A stretch of DNA of 47,020 nt from the IMG/VR virus record IMGVR_UViG_3300044730_001503, positions 1-47,020 of that record. The stretch is one strand, 5' to 3'. Below the pieces are notes generated by a model. The model saw only the letters and a list, made by a program, of their open reading frames with translations, did not search any database and was not told where the DNA came from. Position 1 is the first letter of the stretch. Each line of letters starts with the position of its first letter. Of the stretch, positions 18,812 to 35,523 are shown in pieces. Both the position numbers and the translations under genes were made by a program. The DNA is from a virus.

Positions 18812-19663
18812 TTAGGTAGATCCCCCCGAACTACCTGATGCTGAAGGGCTGCTTCCCAGGGGTAAAACTTGAGAAAGAGATAGAGCACTCTCATGTGTTC
18901 CGGAATTGTTGATAACATGCTTAATGCCTACAATGTAGTAGGCACCATTTAAATATGATCCAGCTTTTGGATAAAGGCTCGTGCCTGCAACGGAAACATT
19001 AACTACCTGGCCTACCTTTAATTTAAAATCACCGGCAACGGTAATATCTATTTTATTTGCATATTGCAATGAATCAACAAATTCTGTTCTTTTTACTGGT
19101 GTTTCGACAGGGGTATCCCAGAAAGATGCATCATTCAAACGCAATCGAATATAAGCATGATATAGAGCACCAACCTGGGGGCATACGCAACTATAAGATG
19201 CAGAAGGTGTACCCCATAAACAACCTAAAAATGATTTACCCAGAAATGGATCATTTTCAACCTTTATACATTCCTGTGAAGCATCATCAAAATAAAGACT
19301 TATAGGTTTAAAATTTAAAATTTCTTCAAATGAAGGTGGGTTGCCTTGTGGACCTTCCCATAAAGTATATCCCGAAGATCCTTCAGATCCACCACTTGCA
19401 CCAGAACCACCGGAACCACCGGAACTACCAGAACTACCAGAGCTTCCGGAACTACCAGAAGATATAAACCCTATGGCGCTTGCTATCGTCCTAATATATG
19501 GAAATCTGGAAAAACAGTCATCAAGAGATCCTGGTATTGAGGTTACACCGCGTGTAATTGCTGCGTTTGCACATTCGTATGAACCTTTAGATGTTACTGG
19601 ATAAAAGGCTTCCTGCCCTTCATTCGTACCGTAAGTTACAATTTGTTTTCCACTCGGTGCCAT
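18812..19663 (-). CDS. Probable baseplate hub component with a GSS-repeat insert
   Basis: 283 residues from ATG 19663; GGAG lies about 10 nt upstream, so this start is preferred over the ATG at 19678. Residues about 68-98 are nearly only Gly and Ser (GSSGSSG-type). The C-terminal part 'LKVGQVVNVSVAG...YLNGAYYIVGIKHVINNSGTHESALSLSQV' (about 215-265) looks like the beta-domain of phage hub/late-control proteins (gp27/gpD type), where 'G.Y.V..V.H' recurs. It follows the larger hub candidate with no gap. The hub may thus be split over two genes. The assignment is tentative. Confidence 0.5.
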   Translation of the reverse strand: MAPSGKQIVTYGTNEGQEAFYPVTSKGSYECANAAITRGVTSIPGSLDDCFSRFPYIRTIASAIGFISSGSSGSSGSSGSSGGSGGSGASGGSEGSSGYTLWEGPQGNPPSFEEILNFKPISLYFDDASQECIKVENDPFLGKSFLGCLWGTPSASYSCVCPQVGALYHAYIRLRLNDASFWDTPVETPVKRTEFVDSLQYANKIDITVAGDFKLKVGQVVNVSVAGTSLYPKAGSYLNGAYYIVGIKHVINNSGTHESALSLSQVLPLGSSPSASGSSGGST

Positions 19664-19664
19664 T

Positions 19665-21875
19665 TTAGCATTCTCCATCCAAAACGTTTTCTGCCCAGAA
19701 ATAAACTACTTTATTATTACCATCTATTTGCTCTATACAGACTCTAGCAATATGATTTATATCAGCCGAAGAAGTAATATTACTAGACGCACTGGCCCCA
19801 ATTGGCCTGTATTTAAAATTACCGGTGCTTGTTTTAACCCATCCAGGTGGTAGATAACCAGCAGAAAGTCCACGCTCATTTAAATTAATTGCCCAAGTTG
19901 CATCTTGTGTTTCACTAGATTTAATAGTAGGATCCAATTCCCAGAGTTCCAGCTGATGTACTTGATATGTATTACCTCCACTGGATCCGCTTGAACCACT
20001 AGATCCGCTAGATCCGCTAGATCCAACTAAAAATGAAGCACCACCAGAACCTACTGGTGTTATACCACCAGAAGATCCCGAACTTCCCGATGCACCGGAC
20101 GATCCTGAAGAACCACAGTTACCGTTAAAATTAATTTTATTCCATTTATACCTATAAAATTTTGCCCCATTTGGTAAATAAGGCCCACTGGAACCACTCG
20201 TTCCACTTGATCCGCTGGTCCCGCTCGATCCACCTGTAGCACCGGTACTTCCGGTACTTCCTGTTGTTCCCGTGGTGTAGTATGCAGTATCTGGTTCATA
20301 CCGCTGCAAAACTGCAAAGAAACAATCTTCTCTTTTTCCCATACAACATAAAGAATACATTATAAAATTTTGAGCTTCTATATTTCTTAATTGAGTCAAC
20401 ATATCTGTTGACCCAACAGAACCAGAAGCACCAGACTCACCATTTGACCCCCCACTTGATCCTCCACTTGATCCAGATGACCCAGATGAACCAGATCCCC
20501 CAGCATTTCCTTTGAAGACATCATATCTAATATCAATAATTTTTTGAAGTATTGTATCACTACCAGAAATTCCAGTTTCCGGATTTATAGTTCTTTCAAA
20601 TGGATGATGTGGATGCACAGGAGTAAGATTAAACATATTTTTCCACATATCCGGACTATCAAGATATGGCATAAATCCATTTAATCCCATCAAATTCATA
20701 CTTTTATACGCATTTGATGTTCCAAATTCATTACCAAGAAGACTGTTTATAGATATATCATTTGTAGGGGACGACAATTCATAATATCCCCAATTATTTT
20801 CTGGATATATGTAATTTCCTCCCGGTGGAGCTTGAGTTCCTCGGCCGGTTGTGGTAACCACATCAATATTATATTTTTGTCCATCATCTTGAAATTGAAA
20901 TGATAGATCTTTTAAAGCTTGTTTGGCCTCAGCTGCGTCCGCTTCATTTATTGCATTGATCAATGCTTCGCCAGTTAAACCATCTGGAACGCTTTGGCGG
21001 TTTAATTTATCAACATATTTTGGTGTTTTTCTAATATAATAATAATTTTTAGAAACCCATTGAAATCCTGGATTGGTGGTCATCCAATAGATTTTACGAT
21101 ATTTTTTACTATCTGATGAAGATATTTTTTGTAATACATTGTCTCCATCATATATTGCAAAATTTCTATAATCAGCATTTATTGATGCAAAACTGGGATC
21201 CATTGCAGGATCAGATCTAAATGCTTTAAAGTTTACACCACCCCCAAATGATGTCCAAAACAAAAAGTTTGGCACATTTGTTTTTGGATCAATTGCACAT
21301 GTTGTCAAGTAATTCATCAATTCGATAGCATTGTCGGATGGCATTTCATCGCCAAGATCAAATGGGTTTAGCGGTTTGTATAAAAAATAATTTTTAGCTG
21401 GATCAATATATCCTTGATTTGAACCACTGGCACCAAAAACCCAATTTTTCATCATACCTACAAAATCTGTAATTTGATAAACATTTGGTTTTTTGAATCC
21501 AAGCAATTCATTTAATGAATGACTAGAAAAATATTTGTAATAAGAATTTGTAAAGTGTACAGTTACCATTGTCTCTTCTGTATCAGAAGCAGCATTATTT
21601 TCGTAACTTACGCTAGTTATGTCTCCAAACCAAGTACTCCCATCAAAAAATTCTATAGTAATAGATGAAGACCCAGAACCACCAATATAAGTGACAACAT
21701 CGTTTAGATCTACAAGAAGCAAAACACCTCTTGGAAATACTTCATTTACATTCTCTACAGTTTCTAAACGTTCAAATCTACAAATATTATTTTGTTTTAA
21801 AACGTCTATTCCACCTAAAAAAATAGATTTAATGGTTGAATATGCTGGATTAAAACGTGATTCTGTGTTGGCCAT
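19665..21875 (-). CDS. Probable baseplate hub protein (gp27-like N-terminus) with four Gly-Ser tracts
   Basis: 736 residues. The N-terminal 180 residues ('LKQNNICRFERLETVENVNEVFPRGVLLLVDLNDVVTYIGG' and 'YKYFSSHSLNELLGFKKPNVYQITDFVGMMKNWVFG') look like a gp27-type hub barrel in this slot beside gp53 and gp48. Beyond about residue 455 the protein has four Gly/Ser/Thr tracts (GSSGSSG, TTGSTGSTGATGG and similar), separated by compact stretches such as 'FIMYSLCCMGKREDCFFAVLQRYEP'. Such tracts would act as flexible or polyglycine-like linkers. The hub call is from location and weak similarity; the repeats are directly visible. Confidence 0.55.
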   Translation of the reverse strand: MANTESRFNPAYSTIKSIFLGGIDVLKQNNICRFERLETVENVNEVFPRGVLLLVDLNDVVTYIGGSGSSSITIEFFDGSTWFGDITSVSYENNAASDTEETMVTVHFTNSYYKYFSSHSLNELLGFKKPNVYQITDFVGMMKNWVFGASGSNQGYIDPAKNYFLYKPLNPFDLGDEMPSDNAIELMNYLTTCAIDPKTNVPNFLFWTSFGGGVNFKAFRSDPAMDPSFASINADYRNFAIYDGDNVLQKISSSDSKKYRKIYWMTTNPGFQWVSKNYYYIRKTPKYVDKLNRQSVPDGLTGEALINAINEADAAEAKQALKDLSFQFQDDGQKYNIDVVTTTGRGTQAPPGGNYIYPENNWGYYELSSPTNDISINSLLGNEFGTSNAYKSMNLMGLNGFMPYLDSPDMWKNMFNLTPVHPHHPFERTINPETGISGSDTILQKIIDIRYDVFKGNAGGSGSSGSSGSSGGSSGGSNGESGASGSVGSTDMLTQLRNIEAQNFIMYSLCCMGKREDCFFAVLQRYEPDTAYYTTGTTGSTGSTGATGGSSGTSGSSGTSGSSGPYLPNGAKFYRYKWNKINFNGNCGSSGSSGASGSSGSSGGITPVGSGGASFLVGSSGSSGSSGSSGSSGGNTYQVHQLELWELDPTIKSSETQDATWAINLNERGLSAGYLPPGWVKTSTGNFKYRPIGASASSNITSSADINHIARVCIEQIDGNNKVVYFWAENVLDGEC
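19978..20505 (-). repeat. Four degenerate Gly-Ser-Ser coding tracts
   Basis: Tracts lie at about 19978-20028, 20065-20120, 20188-20275 and 20421-20503. Each is built of 9-nt units coding Gly-Ser-Ser or Gly-Thr-Ser with varied third bases. A fifth tract is in the next gene at about 19380-19462. The varied codons mean the peptide repeat, not the DNA repeat, is being kept. Confidence 0.85.
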
Positions 21876-23569: not shown

Positions 23570-23995
23570 ATGGCATACAAAACCGTTTTTAATCCAAAAA
23601 ATCCTAAAAAGTATGCCGGGGATGTTTCAAAGATTGTATGTAGATCATTATGGGAACGAAATGTATGTACGTTTTGCGATGAACACCCAGAAGTAATAAA
23701 ATGGTCTTCAGAAGAAATTGCCATCCCCTATATGAGTCCTATAGATCAAAAAGTTCATAACTATTTTCCAGATTTTTTAATACAGTTTAACGGAAAAGAT
23801 GGTATCAAAACCTGGATGGTGGAAGTAAAGCCAAAGAAACAAACTTTTTTAAAGGAAAATGCATCTAAAAAAGAAAAATATACTTGGGTGATCAATAATG
23901 CTAAATGGCAAGCAGCCCAAGCATATTGCGAAAAAAACAAAATGGTTTTTAAAATCATAACAGAAAAAGATCTATTCAGCAATGCCAAACAATAA
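23570..23995 (+). CDS. gp4: Head completion protein gp4
   Basis: 141 residues; T4 gp4 is 150. It completes filled heads and has a nuclease-like fold. 'CRSLWERNVCTFCDEHPEVIKWSSEEIAIPYMSPIDQKVHNYFPDF' (about 24-69) is the family signature, followed by 'MVEVKPKKQT' (about 83-92) and 'NNAKWQAAQAYCEKNKMVFKIITEKDL' near the end. The arrangement E...D...ExK is that of a PD-(D/E)XK-type active site. It overlaps the next gene by 14 nt. Confidence 0.93.
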   Translation: MAYKTVFNPKNPKKYAGDVSKIVCRSLWERNVCTFCDEHPEVIKWSSEEIAIPYMSPIDQKVHNYFPDFLIQFNGKDGIKTWMVEVKPKKQTFLKENASKKEKYTWVINNAKWQAAQAYCEKNKMVFKIITEKDLFSNAKQ

Positions 23996-24554
23996 TTCGA
24001 TAATAGGAATCAAGGATTTTTTCAATAGACATAAAGGGTTACAGAGAACCAACAGATTTTCTTTATCTTTTATCAATTTGCCATCCGGTTTATTGCCGCT
24101 GTCCAACCAAGATGTAAATCCACTTTCAGTGACTATCGGAGCAAGAGCCATTGATACGGTTGCTGATGGTCTTGCTGGTTATGGAATCGGAAGAGTTATT
24201 CCAAGAAGCCAAAAATTTCCCCAGGGAGTTCTGTTGACATTTGCCGTAACAAATGACAACTTTATTCCACTATTCTTTGATTCCTGGTTTAATAAAATTT
24301 ATTCTGGTGGAAGACAACGCGGAAACTTAAGTAGTGCGTTTGAACTTGGATATTATGATACTTTAGTAGCAAATACATCGATGAAAATTAGTTTATTGGA
24401 TCCAAATGGAAATCCAAATACTACATATACCTTTTTTGAAATATTTCCACTCGAATGTTTGCCATTGGAACTAAGCATGTTTAAAGCAAACGAATATCTA
24501 ACATATACAGTTTTGATGAATTTCAGAGATTTTACATATAAGCAGGGAGTTTGA
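23982..24554 (+). CDS. Third tail-tube-like protein
   Basis: 190 residues. 'GIKDFFNRHKGLQRTNRFSLSF' near the N-terminus mirrors the 'FKDGFNGGTRSNRF' opening of the two gp19-like proteins. The end 'FEIFPLECLPLELSMFKANEYLTYTVLMNFRDFTY' corresponds to the closing strands of the tube fold. It is encoded apart from gp19, in the gp4 transcript. It could be the gp54-type tube initiator or a terminal ring; the sequence does not decide. Confidence 0.65.
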   Translation: MPNNNSIIGIKDFFNRHKGLQRTNRFSLSFINLPSGLLPLSNQDVNPLSVTIGARAIDTVADGLAGYGIGRVIPRSQKFPQGVLLTFAVTNDNFIPLFFDSWFNKIYSGGRQRGNLSSAFELGYYDTLVANTSMKISLLDPNGNPNTTYTFFEIFPLECLPLELSMFKANEYLTYTVLMNFRDFTYKQGV

Positions 24555-24556
24555 TT

Positions 24557-25219
24557 ATGGATTTGTTGAATTCTTTAAAAGATTTGTTACCGACTTACGA
24601 GACTGTTTTACCTTTTTCAAAACAAAAAGTTACATTTACTCCATTTAAAGTAAAAGATGCAAAAAACATTTCCATACTTTTGCAGGAAAATAATAAAAAA
24701 CTCGCATTAAATGCAATGGTGGAATTGATATCTTCAAATACAAAAGGAACAAATGTCTTAGATCTTTGTCTAGCAGATGCCGAGTTTTTATTTTTGCAAA
24801 TAAGATCAAAAAGTGTTGACGAGCAATTAAATCTAATTGTGAATAAAGAAAGGGTGCAGGTATATATTCCCGATATAGCACACAGAAATAATGTATTTAA
24901 TGAATCTATTCAAATCGGAAAAGATCTGCATATCCATATTGAGACCCCCACAATAAAAACTCTTTTAAAATTAAATTCTTTGGATAAAGAAGATGTACTT
25001 AAATCTTTGATAACCAAGGTAATAATAAAGGGAGAAATTTTTTATGTTAACAAATTTATCTCAGATGAAATAAAAACTTTGCTGGATAACCTTCCGCTGT
25101 CCATTATACCAAAACTAGAAGAAGCTTTAAAAAATCAGCCAGAACTTTATGTAAAATTGCAGACACAAGAAGGTGAAAGAGAGGTCTCTGGTTTATTGAG
25201 TTTTTTTACTTATCGGTAA
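24557..25219 (+). CDS. gp26: gp26-like baseplate hub/tail assembly chaperone, zero-frame product
   Basis: 220 residues from ATG 24557. AGGGAG at 24544-24549 gives ideal 7-nt spacing, so the upstream TTG (24551) is not needed. 'YETVLPFSKQKVTFTPFKVKDAKNISILLQENNKKLALNAMVELIS' and 'DLCLADAEFLFLQIRSKSVDEQLNLIV' fit the T4 baseplate family of gp26/gp51 (T4_baseplate): a shared beta-strand opening and a 'D.E.LFL..R.KSVGE' helix. T4 gp26 is 208 residues. Its last codons contain TTTTTTT at 25201-25207, where a -1 frameshift would extend it. Confidence 0.75.
   Translation: MDLLNSLKDLLPTYETVLPFSKQKVTFTPFKVKDAKNISILLQENNKKLALNAMVELISSNTKGTNVLDLCLADAEFLFLQIRSKSVDEQLNLIVNKERVQVYIPDIAHRNNVFNESIQIGKDLHIHIETPTIKTLLKLNSLDKEDVLKSLITKVIIKGEIFYVNKFISDEIKTLLDNLPLSIIPKLEEALKNQPELYVKLQTQEGEREVSGLLSFFTYR
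25201..25207 (+). other. Predicted -1 ribosomal frameshift heptamer T TTT TTT
   Basis: In the zero frame the ribosome reads AGT TTT TTT ACT TAT CGG TAA. Slipping back one base on the seven Ts gives TTT TTT TAC TTA and an open frame of 68 further codons. The heptamer meets the X XXY YYZ rule. The zero-frame stop is only 12 nt later. Confidence 0.65.
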
Positions 25220-25413
25220 AGTTTTTTGACTTAAAAGATTACTTTACCACAAACTTTACTTTAATAAATAATTTTAATTGGAATCTTTTTGATTTGGACA
25301 ACATGATATGGTGGGAAAGAGAAATTTACGTAAAAATTTTAATTGAATACCAAGAAGAAAAGAAACAAAAAGAAATGTCACAAAATTCTGCTTTTACTGG
25401 ACTTAATCTATGA
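25201..25413 (+). CDS. -1 frame extension of the gp26-like protein
   Basis: This frame is open from 25177 to the TGA at 25411-25413. It has no ATG, GTG or TTG start before its middle, so it is not an independent gene of normal form. It reads '...KFFDLKDYFTTNF...FDLDNMIWWEREIYVKILIEYQEEKKQKEM...GLNL'. 'WWEREIYVKILIEYQEE' is the kind of helix found in the C-terminal extension of frameshifted tail assembly chaperones (lambda G/GT type). The next gene starts inside its stop (ATGA at 25410-25413), so its end is tied to translation. The fusion would be about 285 residues. Confidence 0.7.
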   Translation, partial: FFYLSVKFFDLKDYFTTNFTLINNFNWNLFDLDNMIWWEREIYVKILIEYQEEKKQKEMSQNSAFTGLNL

Positions 25414-25829
25414 ACGACGACATATCAGTTGATGTATCTGCAGAGCAGCAATCGTTTTCTGCGGCGATAACCCCCTCGGGACTGGATATGTCTACTATTA
25501 CTGCAGCACAGCAAACTGTTCAGCTTCCTCCAAGCATTTTAATAACACCAACAAACATTCAGGTAGATGCAGATACCGTTGCTGATATTTCAAAAGTTGC
25601 AGTTGATCTTGATGTAAAATTTGACGCAGAAGCAGCAATAAAAAGTTTAAATAGCCGTGTTCAAGATCTCTCGGATAACATGGAAAATACCGTAAATAGC
25701 ATGCAAACAAAATGGATCCCAGATCCAAAAGCAGCACAAAGATTTGATGAAAGACCTACAACACAAACATCAAATTTGGTGTTTGATGCTAGATCAAATG
25801 AATTTACAAATTATCCAAGATGGGGATAA
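25410..25829 (+). CDS. Unknown small acidic protein after the frameshifted chaperone
   Basis: 139 residues, rich in Asp, Ala, Ser, Thr and Val. It has a central helical segment 'DAEAAIKSLNSRVQDLSDNMENTVNSMQTKW' (about 72-102) that could form a coiled coil, and a C-terminus of Asn, Arg and Phe residues. The start overlaps the -1 frame stop by ATGA, so it is translationally coupled. In other tailed phages the gene after a frameshifted chaperone is the tape measure; this protein is far too short for that. Function unknown. Confidence 0.7.
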   Translation: MNDDISVDVSAEQQSFSAAITPSGLDMSTITAAQQTVQLPPSILITPTNIQVDADTVADISKVAVDLDVKFDAEAAIKSLNSRVQDLSDNMENTVNSMQTKWIPDPKAAQRFDERPTTQTSNLVFDARSNEFTNYPRWG

Positions 25830-25830
25830 A

Positions 25831-25854
25831 AAAAGCCCCCTTGCGGGGGCTTTT
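25831..25854. terminator. Bidirectional terminator between the gp4 unit and gp32
   Basis: AAAAGCCCCC, loop TTGC, then GGGGGCTTTT: a symmetric GC stem flanked by A and T runs, placed 1-2 nt from the stop codons of two convergent genes. It should end transcription both ways. Confidence 0.92.
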
Positions 25855-25855
25855 C

Positions 25856-26713
25856 TCAATCATTCTCCATTTCGGAGAAGTACTTTAGAGGATCCTTTTC
25901 CTCTACGTCTTCCGACACCAGCGTCTCACTCACGTCGTCCTCAATGCTCTTGGACTCGTTGAACTGCGCACGGATATCGTCGCCAGTTGCCTTCTTAAGG
26001 CGCTCCTGAAGCTCCTGGTAGCTCTTGAACTGGCTCTTGTCAGTGAACTCCTTGAGGGAGTACTGCTTCTTCCAGAGCTCCTCTAGCTTCTTATCGTCCC
26101 CTCCGAACAGCGGGGCAGGAGATGCAAATTCGCTACGATCATAATTTACATAACCACCAACGTTGCGAATCTTGATCTTAAAATCAGCACCGGTCCAGAA
26201 GTTGAACGGATCAACCGCAACCTCATCCTGATACTCGGGGTGAGCGAGGCTCTGGATCTTCTGAAAGATCTTGGTGCCATACTGATAAAGGAAATTCTTA
26301 CCCTTGTTTTCCGGATTAGCAGGGTCTTCAACAACCAAAATATTAGAGATGTAAGTCAACTTACGCTTACGATTGCGCGCAATGTTTTTATCATCCTCAA
26401 TACCACTATTCCAAAGTTCTGTATTTGCCGCACACACCGGACACTTTTCACCGATGGTCGTGGGGCAGTTCTCGTAGAACCAACCACCCTTGCCCTTAAA
26501 GGTGTGGCTGTAGACTGCCACAAACGGGCTATCCTCGCCATCGATCTCCGGAAGGAACCGGATTACTGCATAGCCGTTACCGGCCTTGTCAATACCGGGC
26601 TTCCACATGCGCTCGTCCTTGTAGCTCTCTTTTGAGGTGAGCTTGTCAAGGCGCTCGGTGAGGGATGCGACTGAGTTTTTACTCTTCTTCTTAAAGTCTG
26701 AAAAATTTGCCAT
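25856..26713 (-). CDS. gp32: Single-stranded DNA-binding protein gp32
   Basis: 285 residues; T4 gp32 is 301. It coats ssDNA in replication, recombination and repair. An N-terminal basic cooperativity arm ('FKKKSKNSVASL') is followed by the OB core. Zinc ligands are His70, Cys83, Cys91 and Cys94, giving the spacing H-x12-C-x7-C-x2-C, close to T4 (H-x12-C-x9-C-x2-C). 'FNFWTGADFKIKIRNVGGYVNYDRSEF' is a strong family match. The C-terminus is acidic, as needed for partner binding. The gene is GC-rich against its neighbours. The Shine-Dalgarno GGGGAAAG is next to a hairpin. Confidence 0.96.
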   Translation of the reverse strand: MANFSDFKKKSKNSVASLTERLDKLTSKESYKDERMWKPGIDKAGNGYAVIRFLPEIDGEDSPFVAVYSHTFKGKGGWFYENCPTTIGEKCPVCAANTELWNSGIEDDKNIARNRKRKLTYISNILVVEDPANPENKGKNFLYQYGTKIFQKIQSLAHPEYQDEVAVDPFNFWTGADFKIKIRNVGGYVNYDRSEFASPAPLFGGDDKKLEELWKKQYSLKEFTDKSQFKSYQELQERLKKATGDDIRAQFNESKSIEDDVSETLVSEDVEEKDPLKYFSEMEND

Positions 26714-31935: not shown

Positions 31936-34900
31936 TTAATACAATCCCTTTGGTGTTATAATAACATGTGATCTGTTTGCTGGCAAAGAACCTCTTAGAG
32001 GATTTGGTTCATAGGTTGTATTCCAATCAGCCATATCTTGTGTAGGTTCAAATTTTTGAAAATTAATTCTATATTTTGAATTTAAGTTTGAATATATCTT
32101 ATTCAGTCCACATTTCATTTGAGCATAATTTAATATATTTCCATAACCGGCAGCTTGAATATCACAGTTTGGTCTAGTCCAAGCATAATCGCAATCACAA
32201 CCACAGCTAAATCCAGCTAAATTTTCCGGACAAGAGACAGAGTCTGTACAACTCCAACTCAATGTCGCCATGAAATTTGGATCTATTGGTTTTCCTTGAG
32301 TTCTTTCTCTGCAAAGATATTTTCTCCAAGAAAAATATGAATTTCTTGGGAACCCTATACTGAACGAACTTGCTACTCCTTCACAGTAATCACATTTTTC
32401 TACTGGAAGCCCATTTTCGTCTATGGTGGTATATCTACATCCACCGGATTGTGTTTGTGATGTTGGGCATTCGCATGTTGCTGCACATTCTTTTCTTCCA
32501 ATGAAAGATCTCGTACTAACTTGACCATCATTGCTAAAGTAGAATCTATCAGAATCAATTCCAAAATAACCCGGATTAAAGAAGGGATCTCTATCCAAGT
32601 CATAACAATATTGATAAAAATTACCATTCCATACATATGGGTCACATTCATAATGATAATCAGCATCACTCAATCCATTTTGCCTATTAACATTTTCACC
32701 ACATCTATAATATGGGAAAAGATATGGGCCAATTGTTTCTGGATTTGCATCATTGCCCTCTGGGGGATTTGGATTTTGTTCACATGGACAGCGATCAATA
32801 TCAACGAATCCAGTAAAGTTTCCAGGTGTATATCCTGATATACCTGGTGGTCCCGATCCTCCGTCCCAAGTTATACCAGGAACAAACACTTCTCTTGCTC
32901 CGCATGTATCGCATGCAATTTTACAGTTTCCTATGGGTGCCAATGATGGCCACTGATCAATATACATATATCCAAATTTATCAACACCTCTAACTGGATC
33001 TTGAACACTTTGTGAGCCAGATGCATCTTGTTTTGGACAGTTTCCTGCACCAGACCATCTACAAGTCCAACTTCCGTATAAGAAACTATAATATCCCCAA
33101 ATTTCTTCCAACAATTCATTTGTTAACGGATCAACCCAATTTTGATAAGAAAGTTGAATTGCGCTAGGGCTTACTTCCACTGAATTATAAACATTTCGGT
33201 ACCGCATAGAACCAACTGACCCAAGAGCTCCTGCGGCCCATGGTAAATCGGCAACGGCTCCATTATATCGAAGCCCGTGTTTTGCTAAAATTACTGCAGC
33301 ATTTGCTGCAGCTGGATAATCTGGTTTTATAATACCATATGGCTGTGGTATTGTACCATCAGCACCAAAAAAACAAGCATTCAAACATGCTGGAAGATTT
33401 GGACATGCACTCGGCCATGCTCCAAATTGAGGGGTGTAAATTGAATTTGATCTGGATACAGAAGGTCCATTTATAACATAAACCTGACCTCCAGCCAAAG
33501 AATTTGTATTAGATGTATTGGATGATCGGCTTCCATGCTTTGAACTACAAAAAATTGGAGTAGTTGCTGGATTTTGCAGACAAAGTAAACAACCGGTCTC
33601 ATCTGTTTCTAAAATACTTTGCAGATATATTGGACCACGCTCAGAAAAAGAAATTCTTGCTCCAGTATTTGTGCTTGGTGAAAAACTTCCGGGCGAAAAT
33701 GGACCATCGATAAATGACTGCCAACAAGTTAATTCCGGTCTTTCATCTGTGACTAAACCAAAATCATCAGTAAATAAGTGTGGATCGCAAGCTTCTTCTC
33801 TTGGAATTAAATTTCCATCTTCATCTAAAGTATATCCAGACGGGCAATCACATCCCATGCTAACAAATTGAACTTCTTCTACTTTTTGTTCAACTGTAAC
33901 TCTAAAATTTGTTTTATTTGGTTTTGTAAAATTAAAAGTTTTTACTAAATTTTCTACTTTTACATTCCAGTCTCTAAAAACTCTCCAAACCTTACCTTGA
34001 TTTATGTCACTGTGATCTAAAGTAAATAAAACTCTGAGAGCTCCTGTGGGAGTTTTGTTAATCCAAACACCATCATCTTCGACTCCATTGGACCAAATAT
34101 AACCCGCATCTTCTAATGCAAATATTTCATCTGGTGCTTCTAAGTCCATCCCAAAAGACCATTCACCAAAACTATAATTTTGTGTTCCAGGAGTTCTAGG
34201 TTCACAAAAATCATCAAACCTATTTGGAACTATTACATGCAAACTAATTCTTTTTGATTGTTCGGATACCTCAACTGCATCTCCACCTGTTACTCCAGGA
34301 TTATATCCAGTCCATCCAGCCGGATAAGAATACAAATCCCATTCTGGTGTGGTATATCTGTTGAGGGGGGATATCCATCCAAAAAATTTAGAATTTTCTG
34401 CATCACTTCCGTAATTTGACATCTTTGGACAAACCGCTGGGCAATCTTCCCATCCGTATGGAGTACCTTCTGTAATATCTAATTGATTGCATAACTGATC
34501 GCGGTTATGATATGGTATCGATGAACAGCAATTTGGATCATCAAAAGCATTACAAGAACCGTTCTGATAAGTGCAATCAAGTATATAATCTTCAATCACT
34601 CCACCATTTTGACTCACGGAACCAACAAAATCATTAAAAGCAGCAGTGCCTCCGGTATCATATGCTTTTTGTGCTTTCAATACATCTGCCGCAGTATATT
34701 GAATACCATTTGAATCATAGCAAAATTCTGATAACTCATCTACATCAAGTTTTCTTTGAAATCTATAAGGCCACGGACCACGTGGCATTTTTGCAAAATC
34801 CCTAAAACATGGTAGGGGGTTTCCATCATCATCGTATGCAGTAAAAAAAGAATTGCAACTGGAGCGGAGTGCCCATTCTGCTGAATCATTTACATTATAT

Positions 34901-35523
34901 GATTTGCAGGCGTCTGGATGCGGTCTTAAATTTAACCCAGGGCCGTATTCTGATATATTAACAATAGTTTGATATGATCCGTTTACTTCTTTTTCAATTT
35001 TTAATTTAAACGTAAATCGTAAAAATTCTTCATTGCTTGAAATAGATATATTTCCAACTTGTGGTTGATCTCCACTTGTAGATCCACTGGATCCAAAGTT
35101 CATATTTACCATATTTATTCCATTAAACCAACATGGTTGTATGTCTCCGTATACAAATGCATTTCCCCAAAATCTTGAAGTAGTGGAAAGATCATATGGG
35201 TTACTTCGGAATGTTGGAAACCGTAATAATGGATTATCTGGTGAGTTTACCAAACCACCTTCTCTGACTTCTCCACCATCATCACAGCACCCTGCACCAC
35301 AGCTATCGTCACCGGGACATGGATCGCATCCAATGAATGTAGGAACACTCATTGGGTGCCCTACACTTGGCAGTTCTGTAGTAAGAGTACCAAAAGAATT
35401 CCAATTTGGTTGTGCATCTTGTTGCACAAACGGATTTAATGGATCAAAACTAAAACGATCTATTCTGTAGTGGTCGTGATCACACCATTGACACGGTTCG
35501 CAGCAACAAGTACGTTTTGGCAT
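31936..35523 (-). CDS. Giant cysteine-rich protein, possible tail fibre or adhesin
   Basis: 1195 residues with about 58 cysteines (near 5%), unusual for an intracellularly assembled phage protein. It starts MPKRTCCCEPCQWCDHDH and is rich in Tyr, Trp, Pro, Gly and Asn throughout. Cysteine clusters recur, e.g. 'GCDPCPGDDSCGAGCCDDGG' (about 64-83), 'CDCPSGYTLDEDGNLI' (about 566-581) and, near the end, 'CPENLAGFSCGCDCDYAW', which is EGF-like in look. No signal peptide. Length and late promoter fit a tail or surface fibre; the cysteines could bind metal or form disulphides. It is not a family I recognise. Confidence 0.6.
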   Translation of the reverse strand: MPKRTCCCEPCQWCDHDHYRIDRFSFDPLNPFVQQDAQPNWNSFGTLTTELPSVGHPMSVPTFIGCDPCPGDDSCGAGCCDDGGEVREGGLVNSPDNPLLRFPTFRSNPYDLSTTSRFWGNAFVYGDIQPCWFNGINMVNMNFGSSGSTSGDQPQVGNISISSNEEFLRFTFKLKIEKEVNGSYQTIVNISEYGPGLNLRPHPDACKSYNVNDSAEWALRSSCNSFFTAYDDDGNPLPCFRDFAKMPRGPWPYRFQRKLDVDELSEFCYDSNGIQYTAADVLKAQKAYDTGGTAAFNDFVGSVSQNGGVIEDYILDCTYQNGSCNAFDDPNCCSSIPYHNRDQLCNQLDITEGTPYGWEDCPAVCPKMSNYGSDAENSKFFGWISPLNRYTTPEWDLYSYPAGWTGYNPGVTGGDAVEVSEQSKRISLHVIVPNRFDDFCEPRTPGTQNYSFGEWSFGMDLEAPDEIFALEDAGYIWSNGVEDDGVWINKTPTGALRVLFTLDHSDINQGKVWRVFRDWNVKVENLVKTFNFTKPNKTNFRVTVEQKVEEVQFVSMGCDCPSGYTLDEDGNLIPREEACDPHLFTDDFGLVTDERPELTCWQSFIDGPFSPGSFSPSTNTGARISFSERGPIYLQSILETDETGCLLCLQNPATTPIFCSSKHGSRSSNTSNTNSLAGGQVYVINGPSVSRSNSIYTPQFGAWPSACPNLPACLNACFFGADGTIPQPYGIIKPDYPAAANAAVILAKHGLRYNGAVADLPWAAGALGSVGSMRYRNVYNSVEVSPSAIQLSYQNWVDPLTNELLEEIWGYYSFLYGSWTCRWSGAGNCPKQDASGSQSVQDPVRGVDKFGYMYIDQWPSLAPIGNCKIACDTCGAREVFVPGITWDGGSGPPGISGYTPGNFTGFVDIDRCPCEQNPNPPEGNDANPETIGPYLFPYYRCGENVNRQNGLSDADYHYECDPYVWNGNFYQYCYDLDRDPFFNPGYFGIDSDRFYFSNDGQVSTRSFIGRKECAATCECPTSQTQSGGCRYTTIDENGLPVEKCDYCEGVASSFSIGFPRNSYFSWRKYLCRERTQGKPIDPNFMATLSWSCTDSVSCPENLAGFSCGCDCDYAWTRPNCDIQAAGYGNILNYAQMKCGLNKIYSNLNSKYRINFQKFEPTQDMADWNTTYEPNPLRGSLPANRSHVIITPKGLY

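Follow-up and report, generated by a model that had tools for sequence, protein, structure and literature searches.

The window, which is the whole 47,020-base stretch of DNA analyzed here and a virus record that is itself a fragment, carries a gene whose sequence most probably encodes a G/GT-type chaperone of a T4-like myovirus, made as a 220-aa short form and a -1-frameshifted 285-aa long form. We place the probability of this reading at about 93%. A programmed -1 frameshift following G/GT logic had been claimed in the original prediction for this DNA, and that claim is supported by a slippery heptamer, a domain encoded in the -1 frame, codon signatures at the slip site, flanking Shine-Dalgarno-like (SD-like) and stem-loop elements, and collinearity with the protein gp51. 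The features of the locus are as follows.

23982..24554, plus strand: tail-tube-like gene directly upstream of the gp26-like gene (phrog_45)
24557..25219, plus strand: gp26-like gene, candidate short form of the tail assembly chaperone (TAC-N, G-like; PF12322, phrog_150)
25178..25184, plus strand: Shine-Dalgarno-like AGAGAGG, a putative 5' stimulator 16 nt upstream of the heptamer
25201..25207, plus strand: slippery heptamer T TTT TTT, in phase with gp26
25207..25413, plus strand: -1 frame extension, gp51 domain (TAC-C, T-like), 68 codons and stop TGA (from phrog_634, relatives, and profile match)
25215..25248, plus strand: predicted 3' stem-loop with arms 25215-25222 and 25241-25248 and an alternative 3' arm at 25252-25260 (from fold z)
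25217..25219, plus strand: 0-frame stop TAA of the short form (from the sequence)
25410..25829, plus strand: next gene, 139 aa, its ATG overlapping the -1 stop

The gp26-like open reading frame begins with ATG at 24557 and encodes 220 residues before its TAA stop. Its product matches Pfam family PF12322 (T4_baseplate) at E 2.8e-22, with 79.9 bits against a curated cut-off of 24.5 and coverage of profile positions 2-218 of 219, and also matches phrog_150, baseplate hub (E 5.6e-22). The final codons of the gene read AGT TTT TTT ACT TAT CGG TAA. As originally predicted, T TTT TTT lies within them, in the phase X XXY YYZ, and the stop follows 9 nt further on. The -1 frame opens at 25177 and runs to 25413, and the part beyond the slip, which would bring the fused product to 285 residues, matches phrog_634, baseplate hub assembly catalyst (gp51), at E 2.6e-16. 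The prediction was also accurate in describing 68 further open codons that end as ATGA with the next gene: the TGA at 25411-25413 overlaps the ATG at 25410, and a similar overlap is found in several relatives.

Directly upstream, the tail-tube-like gene matches phrog_45, tail tube, at E 1.4e-11, with the Pfam gp19 match falling under its cut-off; such a neighbor is expected beside a tail assembly chaperone. Within the fragment, there is no tape measure gene directly 3' of the chaperone gene, and the gene at 25410..25829 is not one. In phage Cr30, the tape measure gene comes one small gene after the chaperone gene. We also note, as separate observations on the window, that a head-closure protein (phrog_218) encoded at 23570-23995 has a second match, to PF08722 (TnsA endonuclease N-terminal family; E 6e-23), and that 25829-25856, between convergent genes downstream of the chaperone operon, holds a strong hairpin resembling an intrinsic terminator (GCCCCCTTGCGGGGGC, then TTTT). 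The minus strand encodes two adjoining proteins of 288 and 736 aa with long GSSGSSG-type low-complexity runs (18812-21875) and a cysteine-rich protein of 1195 aa (31936-35523).

We infer the following course of translation. Most ribosomes would stop at 25217-25219 and release the 220-aa short form (gp26, G-like), while some would shift back by one base at T TTT TTT as they decode Phe-Phe, with an efficiency probably raised by the SD-like sequence 16 nt upstream and the stem-loop from 7 nt downstream. Slipped ribosomes would continue to 25413 and yield the 285-aa long form ending in the gp51 tail. On the lambda G/GT model, the tape measure protein would be coated by the short form, tail-tube subunits would be recruited through the tail of the long form, and the two forms would be present in a fixed ratio.

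Heptamers of this kind are not confined to the chaperone gene, as 27 window genes hold 16 in-phase T TTT TTN sites among their 9146 codon positions. Of these sites, only 25201-25207 lies within 100 nt of the end of its own gene. A lone heptamer is weak evidence, and this one becomes strong evidence because it is conserved in relatives. All 65 members of the close group (the window and L001-L064, a few of which end at a contig edge) have T TTT TTT and an open -1 frame at this spot. A broader census of relatives, found with gp26 queries, held 268 sequences, of which four ended before the 0-frame stop and were dropped. Among the 264 readable sequences, 237 had T TTT TTN in phase and no more than 40 nt from the stop, as TTTTTTC in 154 and TTTTTTT in 83; the census is redundant, and identity cut-offs of 80% and 50% leave 108 and 33 representatives of these 237, respectively. 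Named frameshift-type candidates were also checked singly, and the heptamer was present in 17 of 20: P-TIM68, P-SSM4, Melnitz-3, Cr30, S-SSM7, DSL-LC03, Syn19, C48C1, S-B68, KVP40, phiM7, BUCT608, avDM12, Mosig, S-CAM1, ACG-2014f, and ORM_20. The three named candidates with no heptamer were K476, Det7, and 0507-KN2-1.

Of the 27 census sequences without a heptamer, 18 (including Vibrio K476) had Det7, from the Ackermannviridae, as their best-matching query, eight were T4-type, and one was L140. Ackermannviridae gp26 genes (L078, L086, and L175-L189) lack a canonical heptamer yet retain a -1 frame resembling the tail, and all carry an identical ATTTTCATTTAATTTTTGAAATTGATTTA around the gp26 stop. 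At L140:1495-2394, gp26 and the gp51 tail lie in a single frame, again without a heptamer and with TCT TTT TGG at the junction; this joined frame is either a real fusion or an assembly error.

We then considered codon usage at the slip site across the 108 representatives. The first Phe codon was TTT in every case, and the second was TTT in 40 and TTC in 68. For Phe elsewhere in the gene in the same representatives, TTT was used 749 times and TTC 263 times; Fisher tests on these counts ignore relatedness. The codon preceding the heptamer ended in T in 108/108 representatives, a regularity that holds among the 237 heptamer positives, themselves defined by the heptamer. On a tree of the upstream protein, this codon had undergone at least 45 changes and its residue at least 37, and the second Phe codon at least seven. 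The codon pattern rules out the heptamer as a by-product of a conserved Phe-Phe pair.

The -1 frame, by its pattern of substitutions and stops, evolves as coding sequence. Among 46 unique cores from the close group, differences in this frame numbered 5511, 3980, and 10415 at codon positions 1, 2, and 3, respectively, and stops were found in none of the 46 cores, as against 46 and 45 in the other two frames. Complete extensions (n = 233) span 56-73 aa with a median of 64. A profile of the close group's extensions recovered the -1 domain (E < 1e-3) from 233 of the 237 heptamer-bearing sequences, matches within the close group being by construction. Alignment of relatives, one of the checks proposed with the original prediction, found both heptamer and domain to be kept. 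That prediction also held that the -1 frame has no proper start of its own. Taken literally, this is incorrect, as the frame in the window contains TTG at 25294 and ATG at 25303 and 25375. In substance it stands: the earliest of these is 29 codons past the slip, and starting at 25294 would remove the conserved first half of the extension, leaving the window with no domain-preserving start.

The T4_baseplate family had been regarded as an odd home for a frameshift. That family is, however, the one to which the tail assembly chaperones of T4-like phages belong, with the gp51 domain supplied by the -1 part. T4 gp51 (249 aa) matches PF12322 across residues 1-201 (E 3.9e-52), T4 gp26 likewise belongs to PF12322, and the two T4 proteins match one another (E 2e-6). 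In hhalign profile comparisons, the gp26 family of the window aligned to residues 6-201 of T4-type gp51 (E 8.4e-14) and the -1 extensions aligned to residues 200-246 (E 3.6e-9), with the two alignments meeting at the Phe of the slip site. As the gp26 part and the extension are collinear with T4-type gp51, the frameshift product would be a gp51-like protein. BLASTP of the extension directly against T4 gp51 gave no match, whereas the profile comparison did. The record for Konradin names gp26 and gp51 as tape measure protein assembly chaperones, and gp51 is annotated as its own gene in the records of many relatives.

Structure comparison gave modest matches. For the model of the short form (pLDDT 88.2), the best of 994 aligned PDB chains was 3fgx (Z 6.3, rmsd 4.9, 88 aligned), followed by the HK97 tail assembly chaperone 2ob9 (gp13; Z 5.8, rmsd 4.4, 86 aligned); both Z scores are modest, and the next chain reached Z 3.0. 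A Foldseek search of the same model against the PDB returned nothing at E ≤ 0.001, with E about 1, and a sequence-profile search of the PDB gave no credible match.

The gp26 and gp51 genes are separate and divergent in T4 and tandem in KP15. Because the census saw mostly gp51 ends for T4-type loci, gp26 ends were checked apart in six named phages and four contigs. The heptamer was found in none (0/6) of the gp26 genes examined from T4-type phages with a separate full gp51. T4 gp26 retains the Phe-Phe pair, encoded TTC TTT, and the gp26 end of L173 reads GAG TTT TTT, with no heptamer. Relatives carrying the two parts as separate genes with starts, which the original prediction had set against a frameshift, do exist: T4-type phages, through a duplicated gene, and probably K476. 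The separate-gene relatives examined have a gp26 without the heptamer, and the frameshift reading is favored by all tests.

Two further elements flank the heptamer. For the SD-like element, we took the 8-mer spanning positions -23 to -16 in 33 window-group representatives; its mean anti-SD energy was -10.2 kcal/mol, whereas synonymous shuffles averaged -2.9 kcal/mol. Glu at this site was encoded by GAG in 32 of these 33, compared with a background of 482 GAA and 96 GAG. In 67 representatives of the P-SSM4 type, the best 8-mer lay at -15 to -8 (-7.2 versus -5.3 in synonymous shuffles), and the remaining eight representatives showed a weaker anti-SD excess. On the 3' side, the downstream 60 nt folded more stably than synonymous shuffles, with a mean z of -1.96 (32 representatives), -1.67 (67), and -1.89 (8). 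The stem-loop predicted in the window begins 7 nt past the heptamer, at -11.5 kcal/mol and z -3.66. The alternative pairing, of columns 15-23 with 52-60 in alignment A1 (which excludes L031, shortened by a contig end, and L033 and L034, which have a longer spacer), was formed in 90.4% of cells, showed two-sided changes at four pairs, and scored above every one of 500 shuffles in three of the five measures. RNAalifold favors a third, weak helix over both pairings, and one subclade is able to form a local 10-bp hairpin instead. Given the competing pairings, the RNAalifold choice, and the subclade difference, a 3' stem-loop after the heptamer is likely, though not settled.

Together with the heptamer, the two elements may also form a full three-part cassette that has been rearranged by lineage, a proposal to which we give even odds. 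The SD-like element sits ~16 nt upstream of the heptamer in this uncultured lineage and ~9 nt upstream in the P-SSM4 type, and the 3' stem would swap its partner strand between subclades while keeping the same distance from the heptamer. If this is true, spacing and stem strength would tune the ratio of short to long form. The SD-like element and stem may be a new detail for T4-like chaperones.

A fused protein made by ribosomal slippage has to be weighed against other routes to the same sequence pattern. It is very unlikely that the tail domain is translated alone by termination-reinitiation, from a start near the gp26 stop, and is never fused to gp26. Many records do list gp51 as a separate gene, and an ATG falls within 10 codons after the heptamer in 89 of the 237 relatives, but 107 of the 237 offer no ATG, GTG, or TTG within reach, and the window has GTA in the -1 frame at the gp26 stop. 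Separate translation would give the codon pattern of the heptamer no role, and T4-type gp51 is a single fused polypeptide collinear with both parts. In P-TIM68, the SD-like element lies 24 nt from the ATG, beyond the usual initiation distance. Four phages have TGATG or TAATG at the gp26 stop, with the ATG in the -1 frame: KVP40 (L076), Cr30 (L069), phiM7 (L079), and BUCT608 (L080). These also have the heptamer, and a free tail might therefore be made in them besides the fused one. An internal start upstream of the heptamer is excluded as a general route, since in 23/237 sequences the -1 frame opens exactly at the heptamer, with a stop directly before it.

The frame could also change during transcription, if slippage on the T run gave mRNAs one base longer or shorter. 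Such slippage is known on A or T runs of nine, as a review describes, and runs of seven T or more are present in the window and in 83/237 sequences. We consider this a remote prospect, as 154/237 have just six T followed by C, and slippage by the ribosome agrees with both the heptamer's phase and the presence of an SD-like element. A third rival is a sequencing error, raised alongside the original prediction, or a broken gene, with one true frame and a T run of the wrong length. Homopolymer runs are error-prone, and L140 has both parts in one frame, but the out-of-frame layout recurs in 237 sequences drawn from numerous contigs and isolate genomes, which rules out this explanation and leaves it a negligible probability. 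Ribosomal -1 frameshifting is our preferred reading of the locus.

This reading has a bearing on annotation, which would be corrected accordingly: many cyanophage records list gp26 and gp51 as two genes, and others leave the tail unannotated, where a single frameshifted chaperone gene is what the sequences indicate. A natural experiment is offered as well, in which the same two proteins are apparently obtained via frameshifting in most groups examined and via gene duplication in T4-type phages. The slip signal is missing where duplication has replaced frameshifting.

According to the abstract of a study by Vladimirov and colleagues, frameshifting is reportedly kept in several T4-like groups, and T4 uses genes 26 and 51. 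The PRFect paper cites that study (Vladimirov, Gautam & Davidson 2022, Virology 566:9-15) for T4-like phages in which a short gene is accompanied by a long fused one; in the Adele phage paper (PMC12846349), it is the reference for polyT -1 signals in the TAC-N genes of T4-like phages. On the credit given by these citing papers, the chaperone gene described here is a further example of a known frameshift type, and we rejected the view that it is new in kind. Sullivan et al. 2010 described cyanophage gp51 as being without the first ~200 residues of T4 gp51, and searching its main text turned up no reference to frameshifting. In a literature search for frameshift and chaperone, a gp26/gp51 frameshift in cyanophages was not named in the titles or abstract openings returned. 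The G-T frameshift is described as widely conserved in long-tailed phages except T4 in the Atkins 2016 review (PMC5009743), which also reports that, in lambda, the tape measure protein is the partner of gpG and of the G portion of gpGT, and the tail-tube subunit that of the T portion.

Compared with known systems, the gene shares its protein family and a polyT -1 signal in the short gene with the T4-like gp26/gp51 chaperones credited to Vladimirov et al. 2022. T4 itself has the same two proteins, its gp51 being a gp26-like domain plus tail collinear with the predicted frameshift product of the window; in contrast, T4-type phages use two genes, with a gp26 lacking the heptamer (6/6). The likeness to lambda G/GT lies in a short protein and a -1-extended protein whose frames part near the end of the gene, with a tail-tube-like gene upstream. 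Unlike lambda, the window has a gene of family PF12322 and no tape measure gene as its immediate 3' neighbor within the fragment; its heptamer is also different, that of lambda being GGGAAAG. Finally, the Escherichia coli dnaX cassette places a 5' SD stimulator and a 3' stem-loop around a slippery heptamer, an arrangement resembled by the putative SD-like stimulator and predicted stem-loop of the window. The window heptamer differs in being U-rich, and the SD spacing, 10 nt in dnaX, is 16 nt here and about 9 nt in the P-SSM4 type.
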